DNA from: Streptomyces sp. V1I1
GTDB lineage: Bacteria > Actinomycetota > Actinomycetes > Streptomycetales > Streptomycetaceae
Reading direction: 5' to 3'
Length of the DNA: 64,000 bases
Assembly: GCF_030817355.1 (NCBI RefSeq)
Contig: NZ_JAUSZH010000001.1
Span: 744,001-808,000 of the forward strand
Within the stretch, counting starts at the first letter, position 1; each line of letters begins with the position of its first letter. Under the pieces are notes generated by a model. The model had not been told where the DNA came from. It made no database searches and saw only the letters and a program-made list of their open reading frames with translations. The translations under genes and the position numbers were made by a program. This document shows positions 14,438-33,493 of this stretch, piece by piece.

Positions 14438-15664
14438 CTACGGGACAGCCTCGGCGTCCCGAGCCGGCCCCGCATCGCGCAGGCGCCGGGCCCGTAACAC
14501 CAGTTCCAGCTTGAAGCGCCGGTCCGGATCGTCCACCTCGTCGCCCAGCAGTTCGCGGATCTGGCGTAATCGGTAGCGCACGGTCTGGGGATGGACGCCG
14601 AGTCGTGCCGCGACCTCGGGGGCGCCGCCACGGGTCTCCAGCCAGGCGAGCAGCGTCTCGACGAGTCGTCGGCTGTGCGCGGGGGTGCACTGGTCGAGCG
14701 GCGCCAGGCAGCGACGGGCGAGGTCCTCGATCAGCTCCTCGGGCGGCAGCAGGACCAGCGCCTCGGTGTGCTCCGTGCAGCGCAGGACCTGGCCGGCCGG
14801 GAGCAGCCCGCGCTCCATCAGGCGTACGGCGGCGAAGGCCCAGTGCAGCGACTTGGCGGCCTCGGCGAGCAAAACCGGGGGTCCCATCGCGCCGGACCAG
14901 CCCGTCATCGCACGCTCCAGGAGTTCCGGCCGGCCGGCCGCGTCCGGCTCGGGGACGACCATGCGCGGCTGCTCGTACTCCATGTCCAGCAGCACGTCCT
15001 GACCCACTGCCGGGGCGACGGACTCCGGGGCCGGTCGCATCAGTACTCCGACGGCGACCTGTTCGGGCAGCGGCCAGCCGATACGCTCGGCATGCTCGGC
15101 AAGGGCATCGGTGGGATCCGTGCGGTGCTCGCTGAGCATCAGGCTGATCAACCGCCGCTGCAGTCGCAGCCGTTCGCCGGCCTGGCGGGCGGCGGCTTCG
15201 GCGTAGCCGCGTACGGACTGTGCGACGAGCCCTTCGAGATACTCGAAGCCCGACTCCACCAGCTCGTACATGGCCGGCGGCGGGATCTCGACCTGCTGCC
15301 CGATCTCGGAGAAGCGACGCCACGCGAGCCGAACGCCGAGCCGGTAGATGGCCTGGAGCGAGTCCAGGCTGCGGCCCTGCAGCACTTCGCCGCGGCCGAA
15401 CTCCTGGAAGACCTCCAGCTGACGCCCGTGCGGCCGGTTCTCCTCCACCACGAGGTGGCCCACGAAGTCCTCCAGCGCCCCGCGGATGCCGATCAGGGCC
15501 ATGGGCTCGCCCGAGTCGTCGACGGCGAGCGGCAGGCCGGGGTACTCCCTGCGGATCTCCTCCAGGATGGCCTGGGCGAGTGCGGGCACCTCGGCCATGG
15601 CCAGGGATGCGAACTTGCGTGCCCGCGGGCGGGGTACGTCCCGCCAGGCCGTGCGCACGGCCAT
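14438..15664 (-). CDS. PucR-family helix-turn-helix regulator
   Basis: 408 aa. The central GGDEF-like/CdaR region (about 150-300) includes LQRRLISLMLSEHRTDPTDA and VAVGVLMRPAPESVAP. The C-terminal PucR helix-turn-helix (about 335-395) reads LLAWLETRGGAPEVAARLGV and HPQTVRYRLRQIRELLGDEV, the family's signature. PucR-type proteins are one-component regulators of purine, amino acid or polyketide genes, but the neighbourhood gives no target. The stop of a 54-aa membrane peptide on the same strand lies 23 bp upstream, so the two could be cotranscribed. Confidence 0.92.
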   Translation of the reverse strand: MAVRTAWRDVPRPRARKFASLAMAEVPALAQAILEEIRREYPGLPLAVDDSGEPMALIGIRGALEDFVGHLVVEENRPHGRQLEVFQEFGRGEVLQGRSLDSLQAIYRLGVRLAWRRFSEIGQQVEIPPPAMYELVESGFEYLEGLVAQSVRGYAEAAARQAGERLRLQRRLISLMLSEHRTDPTDALAEHAERIGWPLPEQVAVGVLMRPAPESVAPAVGQDVLLDMEYEQPRMVVPEPDAAGRPELLERAMTGWSGAMGPPVLLAEAAKSLHWAFAAVRLMERGLLPAGQVLRCTEHTEALVLLPPEELIEDLARRCLAPLDQCTPAHSRRLVETLLAWLETRGGAPEVAARLGVHPQTVRYRLRQIRELLGDEVDDPDRRFKLELVLRARRLRDAGPARDAEAVP

Positions 15665-15687
15665 GGGTTCCTCCCTCGCTGGTCAGG

Positions 15688-15852
15688 CTACGGCTGCGGG
15701 GACGCCGTCGGCCCGCCCGTCTCGAAGGAGACGAGAGGCACATTGGGCTGCTCGGGTGTGGCGTTCAGTGCGGCGACGATGCCGAAAGCGACCCCCACGG
15801 CGAGGGCGGCAGCGGCCATGGTGGTCAGCACGGCGGCGGTCAGTCTGTGCAT
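15688..15852 (-). CDS. 54-aa membrane peptide (DUF2613-like)
   Basis: ATG 15852 opens 54 codons: MHRLTAAVLTTMAAAALAVG, then VAFGIVAALNATPEQPNVPL and a polar tail ending SPQP. One N-terminal membrane helix (about 5-28) precedes a short extracytoplasmic tail. Size and the 'VGvAfGIvAal' helix recall the DUF2613 family, which in Corynebacteriales lies near arabinan-assembly genes; here it sits next to a DUF3068 gene in an AftD-like cluster. The family match is from memory and unverified. It is divergent from the cluster and just upstream of the PucR gene. Confidence 0.6.
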   Translation of the reverse strand: MHRLTAAVLTTMAAAALAVGVAFGIVAALNATPEQPNVPLVSFETGGPTASPQP

Positions 15853-15930
15853 GGTTCAGCGAGCCTCTCGGTCGGAAGGCACCCCGCCCCCACGGCACCG
15901 GCTCGGCGATTGCCCAGTCTGTGAGGGGCA

Positions 15931-15960
15931 TTGACACTTCGTCAAGAGGGCGCCTACGGT
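15931..15960 (+). promoter_or_regulatory. Likely housekeeping promoter of the DUF3068 gene
   Basis: TTGACA (15931-15936), an 18-bp spacer and TACGGT (15955-15960) match a HrdB-type promoter, placing transcription start about 50 bp before the ATG at 16019. The -35 overlaps the inverted repeat TTGAC-ACTTC-GTCAA (15931-15945), which could let a repressor block it. Confidence 0.5.
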
Positions 15961-16018
15961 CCCGGCCCGTACAGACGCGCACCATCCTGAATCCACCCTC
16001 TGTCCGGGAGTGCCCCCC

Positions 16019-16966
16019 ATGCGTCGTACCGCTTCGCCATTGTCGCTGGTCCTGTTGGGTATCGGCGTCTTTCTGCTCGTACTGGCTCCGATGCTCGCCT
16101 GGTACGTCGAGCCACGCGCCAAACGCACCCCGACCGATGTCGATGTCACCACGGTCTTCACCGGCACCGGCGAATACTTCGACACCAAGAGCCTCAGACC
16201 CGTCCAGGAGAAACCAATCACCATCACCCGACGAGTGCTGGGCGATGTCGCCGCGAGCGAGCGCAGCGGGCGGGCGGTGTGGGACGTGTCCACGGCCATC
16301 GACACCCCCGACACGCTGGCCTTCCGCGACCCGCGCAGGTCCTACCAGTGGACGCTGGAGCGCTGGGTGACCGACCGCCGGACCAACGCTCCGGTGCACT
16401 GCTGCGGAGAGACGCCGGAGTACCAGGGCGAGGCCTACCTCAAGTTCCCCTTCGACGTGCAGAAACGGGGTTACGCCTGGTGGGACAGCACGCTGGGAGC
16501 CACCGTCCGGTTGGAGTTCAAGGGCACCAAGAAGGTCGCGGGCTACGAGGGTTACCGGTTCACCGGATCCGTGAAGGACACCCGGACGGGCACCCGGCAG
16601 GTACCGGGGCGGCTGGTCGGCGTGCCGAAGCAGAGCCAGGTGCATGCCGAGGAGTGGTACGCCAACGACGGCATCGAGCTCGTCGTCGACCGGCGGACCG
16701 GCCGCGTCATGAACGCGAGTATCGCTCCCCGCAAGACGCTGCGCGCGCCCGGTTCCGATGAGGCGAAGGTGGTCCTGCTGGACAGCGCGGGGCTGGAGTT
16801 CACCCCGGAGACCCAGCGCGAGCAGGTGGCTCTGGCGAAGGCGGACAGCGGCAGACTGCGGGCGCTGGGTGACACCGCGCCGATCGGCGCGGGAGCGGCC
16901 GGGCTCGTGCTGGCGGCTGCGGGTGTCGTACTCGTCGTGCGCGGAAGGGAACGCCCGAATCCCTAG
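16019..16966 (+). CDS. DUF3068 (PorA-like) membrane protein
   Basis: 315 aa from ATG 16019 (GGGAG 8 nt upstream; GTG 16010 is possible). One helix near the N-terminus (about 8-27, LSLVLLGIGVFLLVLAPMLA), a long extracytoplasmic domain and one C-terminal helix (about 283-305) give a hairpin topology. Motifs such as WYVEPRAKRTPTDVD, DTLAFRDPRRSYQWTLERWV and VHCCGETPEYQGEAYLKFPF fit DUF3068. In Corynebacteriales members of this family sit with arabinan and mycolate envelope genes. Function is unknown; the domain may handle lipid-linked saccharides. First gene of the envelope cluster, 170 bp before the glycosyltransferase. Confidence 0.87.
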   Translation: MRRTASPLSLVLLGIGVFLLVLAPMLAWYVEPRAKRTPTDVDVTTVFTGTGEYFDTKSLRPVQEKPITITRRVLGDVAASERSGRAVWDVSTAIDTPDTLAFRDPRRSYQWTLERWVTDRRTNAPVHCCGETPEYQGEAYLKFPFDVQKRGYAWWDSTLGATVRLEFKGTKKVAGYEGYRFTGSVKDTRTGTRQVPGRLVGVPKQSQVHAEEWYANDGIELVVDRRTGRVMNASIAPRKTLRAPGSDEAKVVLLDSAGLEFTPETQREQVALAKADSGRLRALGDTAPIGAGAAGLVLAAAGVVLVVRGRERPNP

Positions 16967-17136
16967 AAATGCGCACAATGTGATGGAGCGTCAGCTCCAG
17001 GACAGGCCAAATTTGTCACCGCCGTGAGTAGCGGCGTCGAACAGCCGGGCGGACACTACCAACCCCACCCCGCCGTCAACCGCTCGCGCCACCAACATCC
17101 CCCACCGTCCCGCACCCGAGGCGAGTTGGAGCTCGA

Positions 17137-18294
17137 ATGCCCCAGCACGTACCCCCCATGTTGCGCGCGCCAGTCCCCCACCATCCGCCGAAGTCCCCGC
17201 AGCACGGCCCTCCGTCCGGCCCTCCTCCGCATCCCCGCCGGATCGTCTTCCTCGCCCGCCGCGACCTCGGCAACCCGGCCGCCGGCGGCTCCGAACTGCT
17301 CATCGACCGTATCGCCGACGGGCTCACCGCTCACGGACACCAGGTCACGCTCCTGTGCGGCGGTCCCGCTGCCTTCCGCGACTACCGTGTGGTCTCGGCC
17401 GGCTCGGACGCCGGACACTTCCTGCGCGCCCGCCGCGCCTTCGAACGGCAGGTCGGTGACTGCGACCTGTTCGTCGAGGTGTGCAACGGCATGCCGTACC
17501 TCGCCCCGCTGTGGCACCGTGGACCGACGCTCTGCCTGGTCAACCATGTGCACACCGACATCTGGGGCGAGCGTTTCCCCGGCCCCGCCGCCAGGCTCGG
17601 CAAAAGGCTCGAGCGCTGGGCACTGACCCGCGCCCACAGCGGCAACCTGCTGGTCGCCGTCTCCCCTTCGACGGCGGACGCGCTCCACGGCCTCGGTGTC
17701 CCGCGCGAGCGGATCCGGCTCGTCCACAACGGTGTCGAGGAGCCGGGCCCGCTCGCCCCCACATCGGCAGAGCCGCTGTTTCTCGCCGTGGGACGCCTCG
17801 TCGAATACAAGCGGATAGAGCTGCTGCTGCGTCTGTGGGAGAGGGTCAGACCGGTCACCGGAGGCCGGCTGGTCATCGTGGGTGACGGGCCGGAACGGGC
17901 CAGGCTGGAAGCCCTCGCCGGGCCCGGCGTGACCTTCACCGGCCGGGTCTCGGAGGCCGAGAAGCACCGGCTGCTGTGCGCGGCCTGGGTGTTGCTGCAC
18001 CCCTCGCTCGTCGAGGGCTGGGGGCTGGTGGTGACCGAGGCGGCGGCCCGGTCCACGCCTGCCATCGGCTTCGACGTGCCCGGACTCAGAGACTCGATCG
18101 AGGACGGCGTCACCGGCCTCCTCGCCCGCGGCGAGAGCTCGTTCGCTGCGGCCTGGTGCACGCTGGCGCTCAGCCCCGAGCGGCGTGAGGCGCTCGGCCG
18201 GGCGGCCGGGCAGCGGGCCGCGGACTTCCACTGGGGCGCCACGGTCCGGCAGTTCCGGGCGGCGGCCGCGGAGGCCGCCATGCAGCGGAGGTGA
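17137..18294 (+). CDS. GT4-family glycosyltransferase
   Basis: 385 aa, GT-B fold. The N-terminal acceptor domain begins after a 35-residue Pro-rich leader with IVFLARRDLGNPAAGGSELL (glycine-rich nucleotide-sugar loop). The C-terminal domain shows LFLAVGRLVEYKRIELLLRL, LVIVGDGPERARLEAL and the EX7E retaining-transferase motif in EGWGLVVTE. No membrane helix is present, so it acts at the inner membrane face, adding a sugar to a lipid-linked or protein acceptor. GGAG precedes the ATG by 6 nt. The methyltransferase start follows 7 bp after its stop, so they are co-transcribed. Confidence 0.92.
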   Translation: MPQHVPPMLRAPVPHHPPKSPQHGPPSGPPPHPRRIVFLARRDLGNPAAGGSELLIDRIADGLTAHGHQVTLLCGGPAAFRDYRVVSAGSDAGHFLRARRAFERQVGDCDLFVEVCNGMPYLAPLWHRGPTLCLVNHVHTDIWGERFPGPAARLGKRLERWALTRAHSGNLLVAVSPSTADALHGLGVPRERIRLVHNGVEEPGPLAPTSAEPLFLAVGRLVEYKRIELLLRLWERVRPVTGGRLVIVGDGPERARLEALAGPGVTFTGRVSEAEKHRLLCAAWVLLHPSLVEGWGLVVTEAAARSTPAIGFDVPGLRDSIEDGVTGLLARGESSFAAAWCTLALSPERREALGRAAGQRAADFHWGATVRQFRAAAAEAAMQRR

Positions 18295-18301
18295 TGCGGC
18301 G

Positions 18302-19072
18302 GTGAAGGATCCCTCCATACGCAGGTCCATCACGCTCTTCCGGGCGTTCATGGGCGAGCAGACCGACCCGGACCGGTGCTACAGCCTGCTCGCCCAGGAT
18401 GCGGCCGACCAGCTGGAGCGGCAGACGCCCCTGCACGACCGGCTGGTGGTGGATGTGGGCGGCGGACGCGGCCACTTCACCGAGGAGTTCCGGCGGCGCG
18501 GTGCGCAGAGCTATCTCTTCGAGCCCGATCTGCGGGAACTGGGCGCGCGGGGCACCGTCCCCGCGGGCTCGGTGGTCGCCGACGGCTATCTGCTGCCCCT
18601 GGCCGACGGCGTCGCAGACGTCTGCTTCTCCTCCAACGTGCTGGAGCACGTCGCCGATCCGCAGACATTCCTCAGCGAGCTGATCCGCGTCACCCGCCCG
18701 GGCGGGCTGATCTACGTCTCGTTCACCAACTGGCTCTCCCCCTGGGGCGGTCACGAGTGGGCGCCCTGGCACTACCTGGGTGCCGACCGTGCCCGCGCCC
18801 GGTACCTGAGACGGACCGGACGCCCCGCCAAGCACGCACTCGGCGAGAACCTCTTCGCGATCCACATCGGCCCGACCCTGCGTCAGGTGCGCGCCCGCGA
18901 CGACGTGTCCCTCGTAACGGCCCGCTCGCGGTACTGGCCGTTCCTCGCACAGGCCGTCACCCGCGTTCCGGGCCTGCGCGAGATCGCCACCTGGAACCTC
19001 CTCCTCATCCTCCGGCGCCGAACAGAAACGGCAGCAGCGATGAACAGTCAACTGCGAGCCACCCGTGGCTGA
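18302..19072 (+). CDS. Class I SAM-dependent methyltransferase (UbiE/Methyltransf_11 type)
   Basis: 256 aa from GTG 18302; GGAGGTGAT, which includes the previous gene's stop, is the ribosome binding site. The SAM motif I is LVVDVGGGRGHFTEEF, followed by FEPD (acidic residue that binds ribose) and DVCFSSNVLEHVADP (motif II/III), then RVTRPGGLIYVSF. The C-terminal part (TNWLSPWGGHEWAPWHYLG) is typical of enzymes that modify sugars or lipid-linked glycans. Placement between a GT4 enzyme and an arabinofuranosyltransferase-like protein suggests O-methylation of the same glycan. It overlaps the next gene by 8 bp. Confidence 0.88.
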   Translation: MKDPSIRRSITLFRAFMGEQTDPDRCYSLLAQDAADQLERQTPLHDRLVVDVGGGRGHFTEEFRRRGAQSYLFEPDLRELGARGTVPAGSVVADGYLLPLADGVADVCFSSNVLEHVADPQTFLSELIRVTRPGGLIYVSFTNWLSPWGGHEWAPWHYLGADRARARYLRRTGRPAKHALGENLFAIHIGPTLRQVRARDDVSLVTARSRYWPFLAQAVTRVPGLREIATWNLLLILRRRTETAAAMNSQLRATRG

Positions 19073-22000
19073 GACGACGTTGACCCTCCCCCCGAGCCGG
19101 CCCGGACGGCCCCGGCCCACCGCACCGCCGCCCCAGCCGGCCGGCCGGCCGCGCCGCAGATCGTGGCTGCTGGCCTTCTGGGCGGCGGTCTTCGTCGCGT
19201 TCCTCTCCGTCTCACCGGGCAGGATGACCTTCGAGACCAAGCTCGGAGTGGTCGCCGACCCATGGAAGTTCATCGGCGACCTCGGGGAGCTGTGGCAGAG
19301 CCGCGCCGGTTTCGGCGGACTCTCCAACCAGTACGCCGGATACGCCTTCCCGACCCTCCCGTACTACGCACTCACCGACCTCGCGCACATCCCGGTGTGG
19401 CTTGCCGAGCGGCTGTGGCTCTCGCTAATCGTGGCCACCGCGTTCTGGGGCGCCCTGCGGCTCGCCGAGCGCATGGACATCGGCAGCGCACGGACCCGGC
19501 TGCTCGGCGCCGTCGGCTACGCGCTGTGGCCCACCTTCACCATCGTCGTCGGCTCCACCTCGGCGGCCGCGCTCCCCGGCTCGATGCTTCCGTGGGTGCT
19601 GCTGCCGCTCACCGGCACCCGCACCAGCCCACGGGTGGCCGCGGCCACGTCGGCTCTGCTGATCCCCTTCATGGGCGGGGTCAACGCGGCATCGACGCTC
19701 GCCTCCCTGCTGCCAGTAGGGCTCTATCTGCTCAGCCGCCCGGCAGGTCCCCGCAAGCGCGCCCTGATCGCCTGGTGGGTTCCCGGTGTCGTGCTCGCCA
19801 CCGCCTGGTGGGTGATCCCCTTGCTGCTGCTCGGCGTCTACGGCGAGGACTTCATGCCGTACGTCGAACAGGCCGACACCACGACCGGCACGATGTCGGC
19901 GACCGAACTGCTGCGCGGCGCCGGCAACTGGGTCGCCTACCTCCACTTCGGCGAAGCCTGGCTGCCCGCCGGCTGGACCGTGGCGACGGCGACGGTCACC
20001 ATTCTCGGCTCGGCGTTCGCCGCCGCGTTGGGGCTCGGAGGCCTGGCCCGGCGCGATCTGCCCGAGCGCCGCTGGCTGCTGCTCACCGTGCTGGTCGTCG
20101 TCCTGATCGCCCTGGCCGGATACGCCGGTTCCTTCGGCGCGCCCTTCCACGACGGGGTCCGGGACTGGCTGAACGGGTCGCTGCGGCCCTTCAGGAGCAT
20201 CTACAAGTTCCAGCCCGGGCTCGCACTCGCGCTCGCTTTCGGGCTGATGCACCTGGTGGCGGCGGCGAGCGAGAGCCGCGGCGCCCGGCCGTTCCCCGCG
20301 CGGCGTTACGCCCCCGTGATCGCCACGCTGCTGGTACTGCCCGGTCTGGCCTGGCCGTACGTGAACGGGACGATCCTGCAGCCCGGCGCCTTCAAGAAGC
20401 TGCCGGGCCAGTGGACGCAGGCCGCCGACTGGCTGGAGAAGAACTCGCCCGACAGCCGTGCCCTCGTCGTCCCCGCCACCTCCCACGGCCTCTACACCTG
20501 GGGCTCTCCCATCGACCAGCCCTTCGACGTGCTCGCCGACTCCCCTTGGGCACAGCGGGACTTCGTGCCCTTCGGGACGCCCGGCTCGCGACGAGCGATG
20601 GACGCGGTGGAGCAGGCGCTCATGAGTGGCAGCGAAGTTCCGGGCCTGCGCGACTACTTGTCGCGCGCCGGCCTCTACTTCGTCGTCGTACGCAACGACC
20701 TCGACCCGGACCAGATCGGATACGTCCCGCCGATCACCGTGAAGCGCACCCTGGAGGCCTCCGGCTACCGGAGAGTCGCCGGATTCGACCCGGTACTCAC
20801 CGGCGGCCGGATCCCCAGCGGCACACCGTTGCAGGTCCAGGGCATCTTCCCGCGGATGCAGGCCGTCGAGATCTACGAACCGGCCGGCAACGCCCGGCGG
20901 CCCGGCCAGGCCGGCCTTCAGGCAGTCGCAGACACCGCCGTGGTCAGCGGCGGCCCCGAAGCGCTGCTGCAACTGTCCGCCGATCCGCGACTGCGGAACC
21001 GCCCCACCGTGCTCACCGGGGACAACCACCCGGGGCTCGGCACACCTGCCGCGCAGTACGTCGCGGACGGGCTGCGCCGCGCCGACACCCGCTTCGGGCT
21101 GGTCAACAGCAACACCTCGTACACCTACACCGCGGATGAACGGAACCCCACCGGGAGCCTGCAGGACCCGGGCGAGCAACCGCGGCAGATCCTGCCGATG
21201 AAGGGCACCGGGCACCAGACGACGGCCGTCCTGCGGGGCGCCGCCTCGGTGACCGCATCCAGCAGTGGCAACTGGCTGTTCCACCTGCCGCAGTACGACC
21301 CGGTGAACGCCTTCGACGGCAACCCGGGGACCGCGTGGGCCGAGGGCAGTGCCAAAAACGCCGCGGGCCAGTGGCTCCGTATCGGCTTCTCCTCGCCCAC
21401 CGACATCCCCGCCTCGCTTCAGCTCACTCCGCTGCCCGGCGACGGAATGCGGGCCGCCCCCACATTCGTACGGGTCGAGACCGACCACGGCTTCGAGGAC
21501 AGCCCGCTGGCACCGAACGGAAACCCGCAGCCGGTCAAGGCACCCGCAGGGCAGGCCAAGTGGCTGAAGATCACCGTCCTGGCGGCCCAGTCCCCGAAGG
21601 CCGGACTGGGTGGCGCGGGCTTCAGCGAGGTCTCCGTCCCCGGCGTCCAGGTGACCCGGCTGCTCCGGCTTCCCACCGACGCGCGCGACACCGAGGCCCG
21701 GGCGGAGGTGTTCTCGCTCCACCGCGGCAGCGACCCGGGCGGTCTCTCGCCTGCCTCGGCAGAGGAGGGCCTGCACCGTCGGCTCAGCGTCGGCCGGGGC
21801 GGAGACTTCGCCGTCACCGCTCAGGCGCTGCCGGTGCCGGGCGAGGCGCTCGACCGGCTCGTCACGGGCGCCGATCCGCGGCAGGGGCGGCGGATCACGG
21901 CGACCGCCGACTCGACCAGCCGACTCGGGAACGGCCTCAGTCCCCGCAATCTCGTCGATGAGGACCTGACCACCGCGTGGATCGCCGGCGACCGGCCGGT

Positions 22001-23342
22001 CATCCATCTGCGCTGGCCCGGCCGGAAGACCATCGACGAGATCGTCCTCGCGGCCGCGGGCGGACTCTCCACCCGGCCCGAGCAGATACTGATCAGCACC
22101 CCGAACGGCGCCGTGACGGCCGGCGTCGACGAGAACGGCCTGGCCCGCTTCGAGCCGATCACCACGGACCGGCTCGACATCACCATCAGCCGGGCCGCGC
22201 CGATGACCGTCCACAACCCCGTTGCCGACAACCGGATGCAGTTGCCGGTCGGCCTCAGCGAGGTCTACGTTCCGGCGCTCGCCGACCTTCGCACACCGCC
22301 CCCGGCCTCGCACTTGAGGTTCTCCGTGCCGTGCGGCGAAGGCCCTCCCGTCGCCGTCGACGGCACGCTGCACGCCACGAGCGCGTCGGGAACGGTGCGC
22401 GACCTGACGGAGCGCCGGCCGGTCGAGGTCAAGCTCTGCCGGACACCGGACGGCACTCTTGCGCTGGGCCGAGGGCTGCACCAGGTGGAGGCGGGCGACG
22501 AAGGTCCCCTCGCCCTCACCGACATCACGCTGACCCGCGGCGAGGTCCGGCCGACCGCCGTGAGCGAACAGCGGGCGGTAACCACAACCGACTGGCGCGG
22601 CGACCGGCGGTCCGTCACCGTCGGCGCGGGCGAGGCCGGCTACCTCCAGATGTACGAGAACGTAAACGACGGCTGGAAGGCCACCCTGAACGGCAAGAAG
22701 CTGATCCCGTTGCGGATCGACGGCTGGCAGCAGGCCTGGCTGATCCCCGCAGGCGCGGGCGGCACGGTCGAGCTCGAGTACGAGCCCGTGCTGATCTACG
22801 ACATCGGGCTGATCGGCGGCGCGGTGGCGGTGGCCCTGCTCGCGGGTCTCGCGCTCGTACGCCGCCGGGGCTCCACCCCGGCCGCCGCGGAAATGGCCCC
22901 GCCGGCGCCCGGATGGGTTCTGGGCTGCGTCGCGCTGACCCTCGTGGTCGCGGTCGTGGCGGGTCCCTTCGCACTGATCGTCCCCGCGCTGGCGGTAGTT
23001 GCCCGCCTGCGGCACTCCCTGCTGGTGCCGATCGCAGCGGTGGCGATGGCCGGCGCCGGGATCGCGGCCGCGACGGGGGCGGGCGATCCGGTGTCCGCCG
23101 GCCAGGGTGCGTTCGGCCCGCCGGCCCAACTGCTGGCGCTCATCGCGCTGTGCGCCGCCGTGGTCACCGTGGACCGGCGGGTGCGGGGCACACCTGCGTC
23201 GGCGGCTCCTGATCCGCAGACCCTGCCCCAGCGGGTGCCGTCGGGAAACGGCCTTGCCGAGCGCCCCGGGCCGGGCCCGGGGCCCGACCCTGATCCGCCC
23301 GGCATCGGACCGTTCAACACAAGGGAGGCCCCGCCGAGATGA
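19065..23342 (+). CDS. AftD-like alpha-(1->3)-arabinofuranosyltransferase family protein (GT-C)
   Basis: 1425 aa from GTG 19065, translationally coupled to the methyltransferase. The N-terminal 450 residues contain about 10-11 membrane helices. The first periplasmic loop carries TKLGVVADPWKFIGDLGELW, the conserved Asp region of mycobacterial AftD, and SNQYAGYAFPTLPYYAL. Residues about 450-1230 are extracytoplasmic, with two discoidin/CBM-like modules (AFDGNPGTAWAEGSAKNAAG; LVDEDLTTAWIAGDRPVIHL). C-terminal helices follow at about 1245-1265 and 1290-1380. In mycobacteria AftD branches arabinan using decaprenyl-phospho-arabinose. Streptomyces has no arabinogalactan, so donor and acceptor here are unknown. 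Confidence 0.9.
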   Translation: MAETTLTLPPSRPGRPRPTAPPPQPAGRPRRRSWLLAFWAAVFVAFLSVSPGRMTFETKLGVVADPWKFIGDLGELWQSRAGFGGLSNQYAGYAFPTLPYYALTDLAHIPVWLAERLWLSLIVATAFWGALRLAERMDIGSARTRLLGAVGYALWPTFTIVVGSTSAAALPGSMLPWVLLPLTGTRTSPRVAAATSALLIPFMGGVNAASTLASLLPVGLYLLSRPAGPRKRALIAWWVPGVVLATAWWVIPLLLLGVYGEDFMPYVEQADTTTGTMSATELLRGAGNWVAYLHFGEAWLPAGWTVATATVTILGSAFAAALGLGGLARRDLPERRWLLLTVLVVVLIALAGYAGSFGAPFHDGVRDWLNGSLRPFRSIYKFQPGLALALAFGLMHLVAAASESRGARPFPARRYAPVIATLLVLPGLAWPYVNGTILQPGAFKKLPGQWTQAADWLEKNSPDSRALVVPATSHGLYTWGSPIDQPFDVLADSPWAQRDFVPFGTPGSRRAMDAVEQALMSGSEVPGLRDYLSRAGLYFVVVRNDLDPDQIGYVPPITVKRTLEASGYRRVAGFDPVLTGGRIPSGTPLQVQGIFPRMQAVEIYEPAGNARRPGQAGLQAVADTAVVSGGPEALLQLSADPRLRNRPTVLTGDNHPGLGTPAAQYVADGLRRADTRFGLVNSNTSYTYTADERNPTGSLQDPGEQPRQILPMKGTGHQTTAVLRGAASVTASSSGNWLFHLPQYDPVNAFDGNPGTAWAEGSAKNAAGQWLRIGFSSPTDIPASLQLTPLPGDGMRAAPTFVRVETDHGFEDSPLAPNGNPQPVKAPAGQAKWLKITVLAAQSPKAGLGGAGFSEVSVPGVQVTRLLRLPTDARDTEARAEVFSLHRGSDPGGLSPASAEEGLHRRLSVGRGGDFAVTAQALPVPGEALDRLVTGADPRQGRRITATADSTSRLGNGLSPRNLVDEDLTTAWIAGDRPVIHLRWPGRKTIDEIVLAAAGGLSTRPEQILISTPNGAVTAGVDENGLARFEPITTDRLDITISRAAPMTVHNPVADNRMQLPVGLSEVYVPALADLRTPPPASHLRFSVPCGEGPPVAVDGTLHATSASGTVRDLTERRPVEVKLCRTPDGTLALGRGLHQVEAGDEGPLALTDITLTRGEVRPTAVSEQRAVTTTDWRGDRRSVTVGAGEAGYLQMYENVNDGWKATLNGKKLIPLRIDGWQQAWLIPAGAGGTVELEYEPVLIYDIGLIGGAVAVALLAGLALVRRRGSTPAAAEMAPPAPGWVLGCVALTLVVAVVAGPFALIVPALAVVARLRHSLLVPIAAVAMAGAGIAAATGAGDPVSAGQGAFGPPAQLLALIALCAAVVTVDRRVRGTPASAAPDPQTLPQRVPSGNGLAERPGPGPGPDPDPPGIGPFNTREAPPR

Positions 23343-24694
23343 CCGCCCTGCAACCCGCCCGGCCCGGGCCCCCGGCCGACCCCGCTCCGGGCCGGATTCC
23401 GTTTCCGGTTGTCGATGAGATCTCCCGGCACTGCCTCCGTGAGGAGGAGCCCGAGACCGTACACATAGAGGTGCGCCTGCCCCGGCAGCCGGATCCGGAA
23501 CGGCTTCGGGCCGCGTTCGGCGAGGCCTTGCGCCGGCACCCGCGGATTCTGGTGCGCGAGGCACCCGGCCCCTGGTACCGGCGGCGCTACGAGTGGGAGT
23601 TGACCGGCATCCCGGACGTGGATCCGGTGAGCTTCCCGGAGCCGGGGCCCGGTGCGCTGGAGCGTGCCAGGGTCAAAGCGCTGTCCGAAGCTCCGCCGCT
23701 GTCCGTTTCCCCGCCCGTCCGGCTGGACGTGGTGAGGCCGTCCTCGACGGGCAGCTCGTGTGTGCTGCTGTTGACGCTCAACCACACCGCCCTGGACGGG
23801 CCCGCCTGTCTGCGCGTGCTGGCCACGGCCGCCGAGCTGTACGGCGGCGCCGCCGTCTCCCCCACGTCACCGGTACGCAATCCGGTCGGCGCGGCGGGGC
23901 GGCCGGTTCCACAACCGCCCGCCCGCATGGTCGGCCCGGCCCGGCCCGCTCGTGTGGCACCCGCGACCGGCGTCCGGGGTACCGGCGGAAACGGCCTGCT
24001 GCTGGCCGATCTGCCGGTGCCGCGCCGGCCGGCCGGGGCCGGCTACACCGTCAACGACCAACTCCTCGTCGCCACCTGCCTGATGATCGCCCGCTGGAAC
24101 CGGCTGCACGATGCCCCTCCCCGCCCGATGCGCATCACCATGCCCGTCGACGACCGGCCCCGCGGCGCCGAGATGCCCATCGGAAACGGCACCCGTCTCG
24201 TCGAGGTCGGATTCGGGGCGCAGGAGTACGCGCGGGAGCCAGGCCCCGAGGCTGTCGCCGCCATGCTTCACCGCACCGCGGAGAGCACCCGCGCCCTGAA
24301 GTCGGCACCCCGCCCTCAACTCGGCCACGCCGCCGCCCTCCTGACCGCACCCGCCCTGCCCGTCGGGATGCGGGCCGCCCTGACCCGTGGCATTCGGTGG
24401 GCTGCCGCTCCCTGGACCTCGACGACGCTGCTCAGCAACATCGGGCGCATTCCGTACCCGCTGGACTTCGCGGAGGCCGGCCGGGCGGAGGCCGTCTGGT
24501 TCTCGGCTCCCGCCGCGATGCCGCGCGGGCTGACCGTGACCACCGCCAGCACGGGGGGACGACTGCATCTGGCGCTGCGCTGGTCGCGCGCGCTCCTCGA
24601 CGACGCGGCGGGGCAGCGGCTGTGCGACTTCTTCACGGAGTATCTGGCGGCCATGGCGGCCCTGCCGGCCACGTCAGGAGGTGACGGGCCATGA
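23339..24694 (+). CDS. Condensation/PapA-type acyltransferase
   Basis: 451 aa starting inside the stop of the AftD-like gene (ATGA). The chloramphenicol-acetyltransferase/condensation fold is shown by the active-site motif LNHTALDGPA (HxxxDG; His149, Asp153, Gly154), an N-terminal EISRHCLREEEPETVHIEVR segment and the late MPVDDRPRGAEMPIGNGTRL and TLLSNIGRIPYPL motifs, the latter like the 'DFGWG'-region of PapA enzymes. These acyltransferases esterify hydroxyls of sugars or lipids with acyl-CoA or carrier-bound acyl groups. No carrier protein is nearby, so an acyl-CoA donor is likelier. It would acylate the cluster's glycan. Confidence 0.82.
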   Translation: MTALQPARPGPPADPAPGRIPFPVVDEISRHCLREEEPETVHIEVRLPRQPDPERLRAAFGEALRRHPRILVREAPGPWYRRRYEWELTGIPDVDPVSFPEPGPGALERARVKALSEAPPLSVSPPVRLDVVRPSSTGSSCVLLLTLNHTALDGPACLRVLATAAELYGGAAVSPTSPVRNPVGAAGRPVPQPPARMVGPARPARVAPATGVRGTGGNGLLLADLPVPRRPAGAGYTVNDQLLVATCLMIARWNRLHDAPPRPMRITMPVDDRPRGAEMPIGNGTRLVEVGFGAQEYAREPGPEAVAAMLHRTAESTRALKSAPRPQLGHAAALLTAPALPVGMRAALTRGIRWAAAPWTSTTLLSNIGRIPYPLDFAEAGRAEAVWFSAPAAMPRGLTVTTASTGGRLHLALRWSRALLDDAAGQRLCDFFTEYLAAMAALPATSGGDGP

Positions 24695-25410
24695 CGGGAA
24701 CTCTCCCCGCGGGGCTGCGCGAGTTCTACGAGAACCCGGCCGTCCCCGTCGCCTCCGGAGACGAGCGCAGCCGCCGCCAGGCACTGATGCTGGCCCGAGT
24801 TCTGCCCCCTGAGCCCTCCCTCGTCGTCGACGTCGGCTGCGGCGACGGCTCCGCGGCGGCCACCGCGGGTCCACTCCTCCCCCATCACCGGATCGTCGGT
24901 GTCGACTGGTCCCAGGACGCGCTGCGCCGGGCCGCCACCCGGATGAACCATGTAGTGCGGGGTGAACTGACCTCGGGCGGCCTGCCGTTGGCCGACGCGA
25001 CCGCCGACGCCGTGCTCTTCAGCGAGGTGATCGAGCATCTGGTGGATCCCGACAGTGCGATGGACGAGCTTCGCCGCATCCTCAAACCGGGCGGCCATCT
25101 GATGCTCTCCACCCCGAACCTGGCCGCCTGGTACAACCGGTTGCTGCTGGCCGCGGGAGTGCAGCCCGTCTTCTCGGAGGTCAGCCTGCGTGCCATTCAC
25201 GGCCGGCCGGGATCCCAAGTGGTCGGCCATCTGCGCCTGTTCACCGCCCGTGCCCTGCGGGGATTCCTCACCGCCGCGGGCTTCGAGGTGGTCGCCCTGG
25301 CCGGCGCGCCCTTCCACGGTGTCCCGCGCCCACTGCGCCTTGTGGACCGGGCCGCCTGTGCCGCGCCATCCATGGCCTCCATCCTCCTGGTGCACGCCAG
25401 GCGGGTGTAG
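24691..25410 (+). CDS. Class I SAM-dependent methyltransferase
   Basis: 239 aa, ATGA-coupled to the acyltransferase. Motif I VVDVGCGDGSAAATAG, motif II VGVDWSQDALRRA, motif III ADAVLFSEVIEHLVDPDSAM and LKPGGHLMLSTPNLAAWYNR are all intact; the last is characteristic of Methyltransf_11/23 enzymes acting on polyketide, sugar or lipid substrates. The gene product lacks membrane helices. As the second of three methyltransferases in the cluster it presumably modifies a different position. Confidence 0.9.
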   Translation: MTGTLPAGLREFYENPAVPVASGDERSRRQALMLARVLPPEPSLVVDVGCGDGSAAATAGPLLPHHRIVGVDWSQDALRRAATRMNHVVRGELTSGGLPLADATADAVLFSEVIEHLVDPDSAMDELRRILKPGGHLMLSTPNLAAWYNRLLLAAGVQPVFSEVSLRAIHGRPGSQVVGHLRLFTARALRGFLTAAGFEVVALAGAPFHGVPRPLRLVDRAACAAPSMASILLVHARRV

Positions 25411-25414
25411 CGCC

Positions 25415-26323
25415 GTGTGGTGGGGGGTGGCCTCAGCCCTGCTGGCCAACGTCTTCTACAGCACCGGCTTCGTACTCGAGAAGCGGGCACTGTCCGGTCT
25501 GCCGCCACTGAGCTCGGGACAACCGGCCCGAGTCGTACGGCTGCTCATCGGCAGCCCGTTGTGGCTCGGCGGTTCGCTCGCGCTCGCCGCCGGCTTCGCG
25601 GCACAGCTCGCCGTCTACCGAACCCTTCCCATCGCAGCCGCGCAGGGCATCTTCGTCTCCGGTCTCGTGCTGCTCCTGCTGCTCTCCGCGGCCGTGCTCG
25701 GCGAGCGCCCCAGCGGCCGCGAGCGACGCGGCGTGGTCATGATCACCCTCGCCCTGCTGATGGTCGTGGCCTCCCTCCAGGACTCCGACGCCGTGGGCGC
25801 GCATGCCTCGGCCGGCCGTGTCCTGCTGATCTGCCTACCCGCGCTCGCAGCGGGGCTGTGGCTGTACTGGGCCGTGGAACGCCGGAGCCGCCGCCGTCAC
25901 CGGCTGCCGACCGCGGGCGTCGAATACGGCGTCGCCGTCGGGCTGTTGTACGGCGTCAGCTCGCTCGCCATCAAGGGCGTCTCCAGCTATCTGACGACCC
26001 GCGGTATCGGGGACGCGGTCTTCGCCCTGCTGGGGTCCCCCTATCCGTACATCCTGCTGTTCACCGCAGTCACCGGCCTGATCCTGTCCCAGACCGCGCT
26101 GCAGCGCTGCCGGGCATCTCTGATCGTGCCCGTGTGCACGACCGTCACCTGTCTGTTCACGGCGGCGCTCGGCACTTTCGTCTTCGGCGAGTCGCTGCCG
26201 GAAGACCCGCTGCGGCTCGCGCTGCGGCTCGGCGGCACCGCACTCGCCGTCTCCGTCCTGCTGATGCTTCCGCGGCATGACGAACCCCCCACCCCGGCAA
26301 AGGAATTGGCCCATGAAGCATGA
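25415..26323 (+). CDS. DMT/EamA-type membrane transporter
   Basis: 302 aa from GTG 25415, 4 bp after the methyltransferase stop. Nine or ten hydrophobic helices with the drug/metabolite-transporter pattern: WWGVASALLANVFYSTGFVL at the N-terminus, AAQGIFVSGLVLLLLLSAAV plus LGERPSGRERRGVVMITLAL (repeat-end signature), and FGESLPEDPLRLALRLGG near the end. Relatives include transporters of metabolites and flippase-like proteins for lipid-linked sugars. Its place in the cluster suggests it moves a lipid-linked donor or intermediate across the membrane; that is inference. Confidence 0.85.
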   Translation: MWWGVASALLANVFYSTGFVLEKRALSGLPPLSSGQPARVVRLLIGSPLWLGGSLALAAGFAAQLAVYRTLPIAAAQGIFVSGLVLLLLLSAAVLGERPSGRERRGVVMITLALLMVVASLQDSDAVGAHASAGRVLLICLPALAAGLWLYWAVERRSRRRHRLPTAGVEYGVAVGLLYGVSSLAIKGVSSYLTTRGIGDAVFALLGSPYPYILLFTAVTGLILSQTALQRCRASLIVPVCTTVTCLFTAALGTFVFGESLPEDPLRLALRLGGTALAVSVLLMLPRHDEPPTPAKELAHEA

Positions 26324-26522
26324 CGACCCCCTGCTCCGGATCATCGCCTGCCCGATCGACAAGGGGCAGCTCACGCTGCTCCTGCCCGAGCAGTTCCTCT
26401 ACAACCCGCGGCTGCGCCGCCGCTATCCGATCATCGACGGGATCCCCCAACTGCTTCCCTCCTCGGGTGCACGGGTACCCGACGATGAGCACGAGCGGAT
26501 CCTCAGGCGGATCGGCCCGTGA
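26313..26522 (+). CDS. Trm112-like small protein
   Basis: 69 aa from ATG 26313, overlapping the transporter gene by 11 bp. DDPLLRIIACPIDKGQLTLL and LRRRYPIIDGIPQLLPS match the Trm112/YcaR fold ('aCP.ckg.L' and 'YPI.dGIP.LL'). Of the usual four zinc cysteines only one remains, as in many bacterial members, so zinc binding is unlikely. Trm112 proteins stabilise and activate methyltransferases. Here the gene lies directly before an FkbM methyltransferase whose GTG overlaps its stop. Confidence 0.85.
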   Translation: MKHDDPLLRIIACPIDKGQLTLLLPEQFLYNPRLRRRYPIIDGIPQLLPSSGARVPDDEHERILRRIGP

Positions 26523-27361
26523 CACTCGCCGCCCGGATCGCCCCTCATCTGCCGCCCCCACTGGTCGCCACGGGCGTCGGTCTGCTGTATCCGCGGTATG
26601 AGCCGGAGCTGCGCCGACTGGCCGACTTCTGCCCGCCCGGCGGCTCGGCGGTGGATGTCGGCGGCTGGTACGGCCCGTGGTCTCGGCGGCTGGCGCGGCG
26701 GGCGGGCCGGGTGGTGGCAGTCGAGCCGGTCCCCCACCTCGCCCGCCTGCTGGCCGCCACCACTCCCGCCAACGTCGACGTGGTGAACGCGGCTGCCACG
26801 GACCGCGACGGCGGCACGGCGCAGCTGTGGCTGCCGTCGGACGACCGCGGCAACCGTGGTGTCTCGTCGCTCGTCCGCAGGGACTTGCACACCAGATCGA
26901 TACCGGTGCCCTGCGTCCGGATCGACAGCCTCGGTCTGCACGACATCACCCTGATCAAGATCGATGTGGACGGAAGCGAGCTGAACGTGCTGCGCGGCGC
27001 CGAGGAGACGCTGGTCTGTGACCGACCTGCGCTCTTCATCGAGCTGGAGGCCCGGATCGGGCCACTGGAACCGGTGCTGAACCTGCTCGCCCACCATGGC
27101 TACCGGGGCTGGGTGCTGCCGGGCCGCGACTGGCTACCGCTGTCCGATTTCGATCTGTCAGGCCACCAGTCCCTGACGGCACACGTCGCCGAGCACGGAC
27201 TCCTGCGCCGCAGCCTCACCCCGTTCCGGCGGCGGTACGTCAATTCGGTGCTCTTCCTCCACGGCTCCCGGCAGCCCGGCCGCGCGGCGGCAGCGGCTCC
27301 CGTACGCGGCCTTCGCACGGCACCAACCGTCCGTCACCGTGGTCGCCACGATCACCTTTGA
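26519..27361 (+). CDS. FkbM-family methyltransferase (C-terminal tail reads into a relic)
   Basis: At most 280 aa from GTG 26519 (GTGA overlap). The FkbM fold is shown by SAVDVGGWYGPWSRRLARRA (SAM motif I), VVAVEPVPHLARLLAATTPA and the family's diagnostic ITLIKIDVDGSELNVLRGAE plus CDRPALFIELEAR. FkbM enzymes O-methylate sugars or lipid-linked saccharides. The last 25-30 residues (after NSVLFLHGSRQPG) look like non-native sequence, because another frame of the same bases continues into NTPase-like debris at 27300-27690. The native stop was probably lost in a junction; the catalytic domain is complete. Confidence 0.85.
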   Translation: MTLAARIAPHLPPPLVATGVGLLYPRYEPELRRLADFCPPGGSAVDVGGWYGPWSRRLARRAGRVVAVEPVPHLARLLAATTPANVDVVNAAATDRDGGTAQLWLPSDDRGNRGVSSLVRRDLHTRSIPVPCVRIDSLGLHDITLIKIDVDGSELNVLRGAEETLVCDRPALFIELEARIGPLEPVLNLLAHHGYRGWVLPGRDWLPLSDFDLSGHQSLTAHVAEHGLLRRSLTPFRRRYVNSVLFLHGSRQPGRAAAAAPVRGLRTAPTVRHRGRHDHL

Positions 27362-29265: not shown

Positions 29266-29397
29266 TCACATGGTCTCCATCTTGTAGTAGCGCCATGCCT
29301 CGGGTAGTTCCGAAAGGACGATCGCGGTCACCGCGACGGCCAGAGCGCCCACAGCGACGCGAACCACGCCGGCCGGAATGAAAATACCGTTCTTCAC
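29266..29397 (-). CDS. 43-aa membrane peptide (DUF6893-like) at the end of the hydrogenase operon
   Basis: GTG 29397 opens 43 codons: VKNGIFIPAGVVRVAVGALA, VAVTAIVLSELPEAWRYYKM, ETM. One membrane helix (about 8-30) ends in the conserved-looking 'ELPEAWRYYKME' cytoplasmic or juxtamembrane tail that I associate with the DUF6893 small-protein family (from memory, unverified). Its GTG overlaps the TGA of the hydrogenase maturation protease gene (GTGA), and AAAGGTGAG provides a ribosome binding site, so it is translationally coupled and belongs to the hydrogenase operon. It could anchor the otherwise soluble enzyme to the membrane; this is inference. Confidence 0.75.
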   Translation of the reverse strand: MKNGIFIPAGVVRVAVGALAVAVTAIVLSELPEAWRYYKMETM

Positions 29398-30278
29398 AGA
29401 GACTCACCTTTTCTCGACTCGTTCTTCGTTCGGACCGCCGCTCTTTCAGGAGGCGGGTCGCCGAACCCTCGGAGGGGCTCTTTCTGCAGGGCGTCGACGA
29501 CGGATGCGAGGAGCGGCACAGCACGCGTGACGGCGTCCCGCACCGGCTCGCTGAGTCCCACCACGACATCCGGTTCTTCGCCGGTCATGCGTACCTGTGG
29601 CTCGCAGCCCAGGACGAGTACCCGCGGGAGGCGTCCGTCGCCCAGCCGCCGAGCCAGAGCGAGCACCTTTACGGGATCCATGGCGTGTGCCTCGGGCAGA
29701 CCCGCCTCCGGGGGGAGGTCCGGCTCGATGACGGTGAGGGTGCCGGGTGCTTCTCCCCGGGGCGCCGCGTCGACCAGCAAGGCGGCGTCGAAGCCGTCAA
29801 GCAGCCGATAGGCCAGGTCCATGCCCCGGATGCCGAAATCCACGACGTGCACGCCCGCCGGAACCGGCCACTCCCTCAGGGCGGCAATCACCTCGGGTCC
29901 GAACCCGTCGTCGGCGAGGAAGATGTTGCCGATGCCGGCGACCAGCACTCGGGAACGATGCGACGCGCTCTCGTGGTCGGGACTCAGAGGTTCCACCTCC
30001 TCGGGAGTGAAGAAGAAGCGATGTCCGATCTTCCCGCTCGCTCCCAGATCCCGCCCGGGGTCGTCCTGCACCAGCACGGCGAGGTGGAGCATGCCTTCGA
30101 AGTCCTCCTCGACGGCGTCGACTTCGGCCTCACGGCCGACGAGCGCCAGGTCGAAGATGTCGGCTCTGCGCGAGGGCTTGAGTCGCACCCGGGAACCGCG
30201 CCCCACCGTCACACCGTCCACCACCACGGTCGTCGGCACGGCCTCATCAGCCGCGACCGGTTGTAGCCGTTGGTTCAT
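29394..30278 (-). CDS. Hydrogenase maturation protease with N-terminal extension
   Basis: 294 aa from ATG 30278, overlapping the upstream gene (ATGA). The protease domain (about 110-260) begins RVLVAGIGNIFLADDGFGPE, contains the nickel-sensing Glu of that segment, VHVVDFGIRGMDLAYRLLDG with a second metal-ligand Asp, and DAALLVDAAPRGEAPGTL. This is the HyaD/HycI family, which clips the C-terminal tail of the large subunit once nickel is in. Before it come about 100 residues (VVVDGVTVGRGSRVRLKPSR, DIFDLALVGREAEVDAVEED, FFFTPEEVEPL) not usual in HyaD; they resemble a small beta-barrel domain and may recruit the substrate. About 30 Pro/Glu-rich residues follow. Confidence 0.9.
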   Translation of the reverse strand: MNQRLQPVAADEAVPTTVVVDGVTVGRGSRVRLKPSRRADIFDLALVGREAEVDAVEEDFEGMLHLAVLVQDDPGRDLGASGKIGHRFFFTPEEVEPLSPDHESASHRSRVLVAGIGNIFLADDGFGPEVIAALREWPVPAGVHVVDFGIRGMDLAYRLLDGFDAALLVDAAPRGEAPGTLTVIEPDLPPEAGLPEAHAMDPVKVLALARRLGDGRLPRVLVLGCEPQVRMTGEEPDVVVGLSEPVRDAVTRAVPLLASVVDALQKEPLRGFGDPPPERAAVRTKNESRKGESL

Positions 30279-31360
30279 GCGTCCTCCAGCAAGGGAAAGG
30301 CCGACGGTGCGGCTGAAGGGCGGAATTCGCGAATCGCGCCGTGCAGCGCCGCCATCACGTCGGGGTCGAGCCCGGCGCACCGGTCCAGAATCTCCCGCGC
30401 CCGGGGGTCGCAGGCTCTGGCCTCGGCCTGCTCCTCCTCCGTCATGCTGAGCACGCTGAGCACGAGGAGCTGGTCGATCTCCGTACCGTCGAAGAGATCG
30501 CCGGGGCTTTCCGGGGCCACCGTGGGGAAGTCGTACAGGGTGATGGGGGAAGCCAGCACGGTGTGCGAGCTGTGCCCGCTGCCCTCCCCGGCAAGGACTG
30601 GCCACACGCCCCGGTTGGCGCAGCTCGCGGCGGCCCCGCGCAGCCGCTCCGGCGGGTCCAGGAGCGAGACGAACCGGCCTTCGTCGCTGTGAAGGATCAC
30701 ATGGGTGGACGCGAAGGCGTATGAGGCGGCCCGCTCGCGGGCGTGCCGGTCGGCGGGCTCGGGCGCCGGGCAGGCGGTGGTGTTCTCCACCCGCACGGTG
30801 AGCCTGTCCACGCCGTGCACTGCCGGCTGCGACTCAAAGGCCAGGATCCCGGTCAGCCGCCGCCAGCTCCGGATGACGCTGCCGACGGGGCGCCCTGAGG
30901 AGTCGGTCAAGTGCTCGGTCTGCGAGCCCTCGGGGATGTCGACGGCGGTGTGCCGGGGCCCGCCGGGAACGGTGACCGTGATCAGGACTTCCCGTTCGGT
31001 GGCCTCCTGCCAGGCGAGATGCCGTTCACCGTCAACGGTGAGTTCGTCCACGGGCTCCGGCCCGTGCGGGCCTTCGCGCACCACCTGCCGGTCCACGACC
31101 TGGAGGAACCGCAGTCGTACGGCCACCTCTCGCGGCGCGCCGCCGTGCTCCAGCAGCACCTGGGTCGTGATGGACGCGGGCTCACCGAGTACCTCGGCGC
31201 ACTCGCCCCCGGGAAAGACTCCGCCGAAGGTCCAGCGTTTGGTGTTCTTGAGCGCGGATCTGCGATATGGCCACAGCAGATAGCCCTCGTACAGGCAGGT
31301 GCGGGCGATCGTGTCGACGGCTGTCGTCGCAGAAGTGGCAGAAGTGGCAGCGGTGTTCAT
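30275..31360 (-). CDS. Conserved hydrogenase-operon protein, 361 aa, unknown function
   Basis: Starts at ATG 31360, coupled by ATGA to the genes on both sides. I recognise no catalytic motif. A short Ala/Thr leader precedes DTIARTCLYEGYLLWPYRRS ALKN, then a mostly beta-strand protein (VRLRFLQVVDRQVV; LITVTVPGGPRHTAVDIPEG; LTVRVENTTA) and a C-terminal segment with TVLASPITLYDFPTVAPESP, FDGTEIDQLLVLSVLSMTEE and ILDRCAGLDPDVMAALHGAI. No signal peptide or membrane helix, so it should act in the cytoplasm. The same gene is part of actinobacterial group 1h hydrogenase loci as I remember them, which argues for a role in assembly or as an extra subunit. Confidence 0.8.
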   Translation of the reverse strand: MNTAATSATSATTAVDTIARTCLYEGYLLWPYRRSALKNTKRWTFGGVFPGGECAEVLGEPASITTQVLLEHGGAPREVAVRLRFLQVVDRQVVREGPHGPEPVDELTVDGERHLAWQEATEREVLITVTVPGGPRHTAVDIPEGSQTEHLTDSSGRPVGSVIRSWRRLTGILAFESQPAVHGVDRLTVRVENTTACPAPEPADRHARERAASYAFASTHVILHSDEGRFVSLLDPPERLRGAAASCANRGVWPVLAGEGSGHSSHTVLASPITLYDFPTVAPESPGDLFDGTEIDQLLVLSVLSMTEEEQAEARACDPRAREILDRCAGLDPDVMAALHGAIREFRPSAAPSAFPLLEDA

Positions 31361-32046: not shown

Positions 32047-32249
32047 GCCGGGGAGAGATTCGGCATATCGGGCATGATCGGGTCGCGGTGCCTGGCGTTG
32101 ATGCCCGTGGAGCGCCGCGCGGTCGATGTGTCGTCGGGCCGGTGGCCCGGCTGGCGCTTGATGAGGCCGCGGTGATTGCCCCGGCGCACCCCCGGGACGT
32201 GCGCGGTCCTGTCGGTCCGTACATCCGGCTTGCCTACGGTGATGCCCAT
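32043..32249 (-). CDS. 68-aa conserved basic protein of the hydrogenase operon
   Basis: ATG 32249 begins MGITVGKPDVRTDRTAHVPG, followed by VRRGNHRGLIKRQPGHRPDD, TSTARRSTGINARHRDPIMP and DMPNLSPA. It is basic and Pro/Gly/Arg/His-rich, with no predicted fold, so probably disordered until bound. The motif 'RRSTGIN...PI.P.MPNLSPA' looks conserved in homologous loci from memory. It overlaps the DUF5947-like gene by 16 bp and the DUF6084-like gene by ATGA. Such a short, motif-bearing protein suggests a chaperone peptide or linker subunit; the role is unknown. Confidence 0.75.
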   Translation of the reverse strand: MGITVGKPDVRTDRTAHVPGVRRGNHRGLIKRQPGHRPDDTSTARRSTGINARHRDPIMPDMPNLSPA

Positions 32250-33483: not shown

Positions 33484-33493
33484 ACCCCGCCTC

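Follow-up and report, generated by a model that had tools for sequence, protein, structure and literature searches.

In the Corynebacterineae, tmaT, lmcA (pgfA), mmpA and mtrP form a conserved locus together with aftD (PMC8698533, PMC8972800, PMC9678360), which in Corynebacterium glutamicum corresponds to NCgl2759-2765 (PMC8698533). Acetylated trehalose mycolate depends on TmaT, MtrP and MmpA, and lipomannan and lipoarabinomannan depend on LmcA (PMC8698533, PMC8972800). PgfA has been linked to trehalose monomycolate and polar growth (PMC9678360), AftD has been reported as an alpha-1,5 arabinofuranosyltransferase in C. glutamicum (PMC6034362), and in mycobacteria essentiality has been reported for Rv0226c (PMC8698533), pgfA (PMC9678360) and aftD (PMC6034362). 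Here we analyse an operon of Streptomyces sp. V1I1, contained in a window of 64,000 nucleotides (C1:744001-808000 of the 8.30 Mb genome), that probably represents, in Streptomyces, an envelope-glycan locus of old standing among actinobacteria. From sequence, its PgfA, a family 4 glycosyltransferase (GT4), MtrP and AftD are the core of the published tmaT-mmpA-lmcA-mtrP/aftD locus, the four genes lying together in the Corynebacterineae as they do here.

A first-pass annotation of the window had proposed an arabinan-type glycan cluster at 15931..27361. The cluster is real up to 27361, but its first gene starts near 16010, and its named parts (the GT-C protein, DUF3068 protein, GT4, three methyltransferases and Trm112-like protein) are present by family matches. 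The nine genes all lie on the plus strand (16010-27361), beside a divergent PucR-type regulator that may control them. From MtrP onward, five of the six gene junctions overlap by 4 or 8 bases, which argues for organization as an operon, and all nine reading frames are open and codon-biased. The features are as follows.

14438..15664, minus strand: PucR/CdaR-type regulator (HTH_30), divergent; PF13556, 74 bits; supported by third-codon-position GC content (GC3)
16010..16966, plus strand: PgfA/LmcA homologue (DUF3068/PorA), putative membrane-anchored lipid-binding-type beta barrel; curated PgfA model and predicted fold
17137..18294, plus strand: GT4 glycosyltransferase, kin of the GT4 of the mycobacterial locus; PF00534, PF13692
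18302..19072 (start picked by eye), plus strand: MtrP-type methyltransferase (Methyltransf_11)
19065..23342, plus strand: AftD-family GT-C glycosyltransferase, 1425 residues, with a C-terminal carbohydrate-binding region; PF11847, F5/8C
23339..24694, plus strand: condensation-fold acyltransferase (AcT), weakly WS/DGAT-like, with an NHTALDG motif
24691..25410, plus strand: S-adenosylmethionine-dependent methyltransferase (MT2; Methyltransf_23); PF13489, 79.8 bits
25415..26323 (start picked by eye), plus strand: membrane protein resembling drug/metabolite transporters (DMT-like); scores at or under family cut-offs
26316..26522, plus strand: Trm112-like small protein, 68 residues; PF03966, 37.7 bits, cut-off 22
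26519..27361, plus strand: FkbM-family methyltransferase; PF05050, 60.6 bits; TIGR01444, 77.9 bits

Three competing plus-strand frames were rejected as genes: 14591-15934 has no family match, and GC3 favours the regulator on the opposite strand, while 18376-19083 and 26320-26601 have no Pfam match and MtrP and Trm112 are the genes at those places.

The DUF3068 protein scores 306.6 with the curated PgfA equivalog model (cut-off 160), and its predicted structure matches the LmcA fold at 19% identity in structural alignment (PDB 7n3v, 7shw); by these measures it is a PgfA/LmcA homologue. Among its 120 listed relatives, the named ones are from Streptomyces except for three from Embleya. If the host lacks mycolates, the substrate of this PgfA, unlike that assigned to its relatives, cannot be trehalose monomycolate. 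GT4 and MtrP share 33% identity and 44% identity (over 252 columns), respectively, with the GT4 and the counterpart methyltransferase of a mycobacterial-type locus; we take the mycobacterial GT4 to be Rv0225. Models built without any Streptomyces sequence find all four proteins in the window, with 302 bits for GT4, 315 for MtrP, 246 for PgfA and 1162 for AftD.

The AftD protein resembles its mycobacterial counterpart almost from end to end. Its GT-C_AftD domain (PF11847) scores 717 bits against a cut-off of 26, residues 32-1365 align with residues 40-1411 of the mycobacterial AftD cryo-EM structure 6wbx (E 1.1e-132), and identity to a mycobacterial-type AftD is 32% over 1324 columns, with most of the C-terminal half aligning as well. 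Two carbohydrate-binding-like modules had been predicted in the protein; Pfam scores one, of the F5/8 type, at residues 729-807. The predicted AftD first-loop motif is present as ETK, and reads [DE]T[KR] in 57 aligned rows (by eye). Thus the known structures (6wbx, 6w98) and PF11847 proteins are matched in the GT-C domain, the carbohydrate-binding half and the [DE]TK motif. In AftD-type enzymes the catalytic Asp sits at the tip of juxtamembrane helix 1 (PMC12041299), and the catalytic residue of the Streptomyces enzyme would be the acidic residue of this motif.

The core extends well beyond the organisms in which it was described. Among 296 sampled genomes of the class Actinomycetes, AftD is found in 150, PgfA in 146 and Emb in 27, all of one family, and AftD and PgfA lie within 20 kb of one another in 99 of the 106 genomes with listed places for both (this last count uses the stronger listed matches and leaves out nine PgfA rows of AftD-less Streptomyces, with no effect on genomes holding both). 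A draw of 197 genomes from the phylum added AftD matches in 15 genomes of other classes (14 above cut-off), and GT4 was nearby in 7 of the 11 such loci fetched. The assumption that AftD and DUF3068 proteins mark organisms with arabinogalactan is not supported by these numbers, and we rejected AftD as such a marker.

To describe gene content, AftD loci were fetched from 55 genomes of the class draw, 40 of which, from 12 families, are neither Streptomyces nor Mycobacteriaceae-like (a designation for family f4 that we infer from Emb, DprE1 and locus content). Counting matches above 150 bits, 38 of these 40 distant genomes hold GT4, 30 hold MtrP, 31 PgfA, 32 an MmpA-like gene and 29 an AT3 acyltransferase. 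The complete quartet of GT4, MtrP, AftD and PgfA occurs in 24 of them, spanning nine families (25 at a threshold of 40 bits), and 22 of the 24 also carry the MmpA-like gene; polA or rpsA lies in the same stretch in 18 of the 40. The family models were built from loci that were later counted, and six were therefore rebuilt with whole families left out. With the Mycobacteriaceae-like family left out, the models still score its MmpA at 400-430 bits in four loci and at 99 bits in a truncated copy, its GT4 at 473 and 500 bits (112 in a truncated copy), its MtrP at 325 and 348 bits and its AT3 at 315-357 bits, and they also find its PgfA and AftD. Nine control stretches gave no GT4, AftD or MmpA match. 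Five had no match of any kind, and the other four were the second Streptomyces PgfA locus described below (two stretches, with weak MtrP matches of 47-48 bits), part of a split f15 locus, or an rpsA-type flank; PgfA was duly found in controls L164, L096 and L085, which had been chosen for holding it. The four genes of the quartet are thus neighbours in many families across the class, and the basic job of the locus probably predates the mycobacterial cell wall and reaches beyond it.

The distribution of MmpA deserves separate comment. According to PMC8698533, MmpA lacks homology outside corynebacteria and mycobacteria, a restriction against which the MmpA-like genes of the 32 distant genomes speak. 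When compared with AftD, the MmpA-like family (C3; for example L161:4296-6080) aligns strongly, over 461 columns (99.0%, E 4.5e-18). Two other membrane families, one of which was represented by just four sequences, gave E values of 0.049 or higher in the comparison with AftD. A partial likeness of MmpA to the N-terminal part of AftD had already been noted (PMC8698533), so the novelty lies in the spread of MmpA and not in this similarity. MmpA-like proteins are thus remote kin of AftD in its GT-C domain, and MmpA may accordingly act as a glycosyltransferase and not as an anchor in the membrane. A further component, C8, is weakly GT-C-like (87%, E 3.6e-6) and serves as a lead. Component C6 looked like a MOP flippase by eye, and one of its members had no Pfam match; because it combines likely genes with antisense frames, its counts were set aside.

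Within Streptomyces the set has been rebuilt. Models made without Streptomyces find neither MmpA nor an integral-membrane acyltransferase of the AT3/TmaT type at 9000-34000 of the window, and neither gene was found in the 11 Streptomyces loci of the class draw. In contrast to the Corynebacterineae locus, which has both, the Streptomyces loci hold AcT, MT2, the DMT-like protein, Trm112 and FkbM; outside Streptomyces, among the 40 distant genomes, AcT is found only in three members of f16 and FkbM in one. The remodelled set is itself well conserved. In a survey of 27 Streptomyces loci chosen for AftD (26 named and one further), PgfA, GT4 and MtrP each lie next to AftD in 26. AcT, Trm112 and the regulator each accompany it in 25, MT2 and the DMT-like gene each in 24, and FkbM in 19; the MT2 count leaves out one cross-match to MtrP in L119, and loci L110 and L119 are truncated. 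Five genes further out occur in 0-2 of the 27, and since the operon genes recur beside AftD while these do not, the linkage is not due to chance. The tight AftD-DUF3068 linkage and the conserved neighbourhood anticipated by the first-pass annotation are thus borne out.

The operon also stands at a different place from the old locus. A second PgfA (291.8 bits, L164:8077-9066, at about 6.36 Mb of C1) lies between polA and rpsA, where other families carry the entire glycan locus. In both Streptomyces genomes examined, V1I1 and one other, this slot contains the second PgfA alone, in V1I1 with a transglycosylase-like gene beside it. A tree of PgfA proteins joins the second copy to f15 (support 98) and puts the operon copy on a long branch of its own. 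From the lone PgfA in the polA-rpsA slot and from this tree we conclude that the operon is not the old locus in situ but a remodelled set located elsewhere. The Streptomyces AftD proteins likewise form one clade, next to f16 and f15, on the longest inner branch of their tree (0.96); both trees were built quickly, each with a single support value.

The same observations could be taken to mean that the operon is now a relic, or has partly fallen idle, and that its function has moved to the second PgfA and other genes, as the occupied slot in two genomes and the long AftD branch might suggest. Eight of the nine genes are, however, kept at 57-96% identity in 24-26 of the 27 loci, all nine frames are intact, and 11 Streptomyces AftD sequences keep 83 of the 103 columns that are conserved in 85% or more of 46 non-Streptomyces sequences. 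We consider decay of this kind highly improbable. Twelve of the 103 columns are replaced, in contrast to known AftD, and among them D61 of DTKLD in the first loop, present in 43 of 46 sequences outside Streptomyces, reads G in 11 of 11 Streptomyces rows. We had considered the D61 change as a sign of a new sugar, a view tempered by most of the AftD starts compared from other classes, which read Y or another residue there (by eye).

The replaced columns weigh against an arabinan-decorated product, for which the AftD-like enzyme would be a true D-arabinofuranosyltransferase drawing on decaprenylphosphoryl-arabinose (DPA). The V1I1 genome encodes a PAP2 protein, DPPRS (412.9 bits, cut-off 207), DprE1 (693.2, cut-off 500) and a short-chain dehydrogenase at the DprE2 place, side by side (L163:8519-12395, at about 3.18 Mb of C1), so a D-arabinofuranose donor is possible in this organism, and AftD is the only one found of the four arabinosyltransferase families tested (AftD, Emb, AftA, AftB). 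This complete-looking DPA set is 2.4 Mb from the operon, and a Pfam scan of the seven L163 frames found no glycosyltransferase beside it. No match to Emb, AftA or AftB, the partners that an arabinan would call for, was obtained in the genome (AftC was not among the families searched), and the absence of Emb also separates V1I1 from the Corynebacterineae.

Genome comparisons cut both ways. Among 150 Streptomyces, 32 have AftD and DPPRS, 27 AftD alone, 24 DPPRS alone and 67 neither, so that DPPRS accompanies AftD above expectation (32/59 against 24/91; Fisher p 9e-4, uncorrected for kinship); this larger draw tempers our earlier view, from the small class draw (6/13 against 8/18), that the two are uncoupled in Streptomyces. 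In 18 genomes that do not belong to the Mycobacteriaceae-like family, AftD and DPPRS are also less than 20 kb apart. On the other hand, DPPRS is not above cut-off in 27 of the 59 AftD-bearing Streptomyces, none of the six class-draw Streptomyces with both genes has them within 20 kb, and 77 of 149 AftD genomes of the class (G368, with AftD below cut-off, is left out) lack both DPPRS and DprE1 above cut-offs; all 14 of those from f17 and 27 of the 28 from f16 are in this group. D-arabinofuranose is therefore unlikely as the donor rule for the whole AftD family, and an arabinan in V1I1 itself seems rather unlikely to us. Arabinogalactan genes have been placed after a node that excludes most actinobacteria (PMC6194230), and the word AftD is absent from the text of that study.

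Two observations outside V1I1 are of interest here. In f15, loci L124, L125, L126, L127 and L128 hold AftD, two PgfA genes, DPPRS and DprE1 in one stretch, and in all, 12 f15 genomes have AftD within 20 kb of DPPRS, which suggests f15 as a good place to seek arabinan outside Corynebacteriales. One Streptomyces (G387:C1:1867766-1872691) carries two AftB-like stretches that score 307 and 189 bits where the cut-off is 1050.

The best reading of the operon is thus a modified envelope glycan or glycolipid system. A surface role of this kind, proposed in the first-pass annotation, remains the likeliest function; the notion of an arabinan oddity peculiar to Streptomyces gives way to that of a remodelled old actinobacterial locus. 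The same genes might instead belong to a specialised-metabolite or glycolipid pathway that recruited a GT-C enzyme and PgfA, since metabolite clusters often contain condensation-fold acyltransferases and FkbM methyltransferases, the system is patchy in the genus, a PucR-type regulator adjoins it and it lies about 0.76 Mb from the contig end. Against this, the core genes keep one another's company from family to family, and 18 of the 40 distant genomes have polA or rpsA on the stretch as well; family scans of the operon find neither a polyketide synthase nor a peptide synthase, and the relatives of PgfA and AftD are envelope proteins in mycobacteria. We regard a metabolite pathway as improbable.

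How the envelope system might work can be sketched from the gene identities. GT4 would build a short saccharide on a membrane lipid at the cytoplasmic side, where MtrP, MT2 and FkbM would methylate it, perhaps with Trm112 as activator, and AcT would acylate it. The DMT-like protein, a candidate flippase, would turn the product across the membrane. Outside, AftD would hold on to the glycan through its binding region and add sugar from a polyprenyl-phosphate donor, and PgfA would bind or ferry the lipid-linked product. The order of steps and the product itself are conjectural. This scheme shares its general logic, a lipid-phosphate sugar donor and a GT-C enzyme with a carbohydrate-binding module, with the three-component pentofuranose systems (PMC11127046), which differ in having a polyprenyl-phosphate ribosyltransferase not present in the Streptomyces operon.

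Two of these assignments are looser than first proposed. AcT has a condensation-type fold (its predicted model matches condensation/acyltransferase folds in Foldseek) and an HxxxDG motif, with H149 and D153 invariant in 22 sequences, and is only possibly a specific relative of PapA: TIGR02946 gives 32.8 bits, far below cut-off, no sequence match was found among solved structures, and no PapA is among the best 50 of 249 good fold matches, the best being condensation-type domains. The protein at 25412-26323 is DMT-like but borderline as a transporter, with scores of 26.2 for PF05653 (cut-off 26.2), 26.7 for PF00892 (28.2) and 31.4 for NF038012 (50).

Several further points weigh against our interpretation. 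Only 59 of 150 Streptomyces carry AftD, which means that members of the genus can do without the system. GT4 and MtrP are putative orthologues, as judged by locus comparison, and at least one quartet gene was not found in the fetched stretch in 16 of the 40 distant genomes (some stretches end at contig ends). The AcT model is weak (pLDDT only 62.6), the transporter call is borderline, and the membrane side of each step is inferred. Finally, C. glutamicum deletions split the core into two phenotypes, LmcA on one side and MtrP/MmpA/TmaT on the other (PMC8698533), so one shared product is not established.

To the right of the operon, the window holds a [NiFe] hydrogenase cluster (29394-38242) with large and small subunits, a HycI-type protease, DUF5947 and a formyltransferase/enoyl-CoA hydratase fusion that is presumably HypX-like, both this name and the type of the cluster being our assumption. 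It is followed by an AIR-synthase-like gene (43405-44484), and at 57216-61388 two similar-looking regulator genes surround an IS110-type transposase-like gene (58364-59434; by eye).

The first-pass annotation called the putative product undescribed. The open-access matches listed contain no Streptomyces account (subscription papers mostly lie outside them), but the core itself is published in Corynebacterineae. In mycobacteria, PgfA, MtrP and MmpA have been explained by trehalose mycolate transport or lipoglycan synthesis (PMC8698533, PMC9678360). The spread of the envelope locus is wider than the literature consulted says. The same gene set occurs in organisms that lack Emb and, as far as is known, mycolates too, so the mycobacterial explanations may describe a later use. 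More tentatively, the pgfA, mmpA, mtrP and aftD genes could be the remains of a class-wide system, shared by many actinobacteria beyond the mycolate group, for making and delivering one undescribed lipid-linked envelope glycan, evolved for neither mycolates nor arabinan, with MmpA one of its GT-C glycosyltransferases and a rebuilt Streptomyces version using a sugar other than arabinose. The label "arabinofuranosyltransferase" on PF11847 proteins is unproven in about half of the genomes that carry them. In Streptomyces, where the operon occurs naturally and was not found in most sampled species, there is a harmless place to learn what the core function is.

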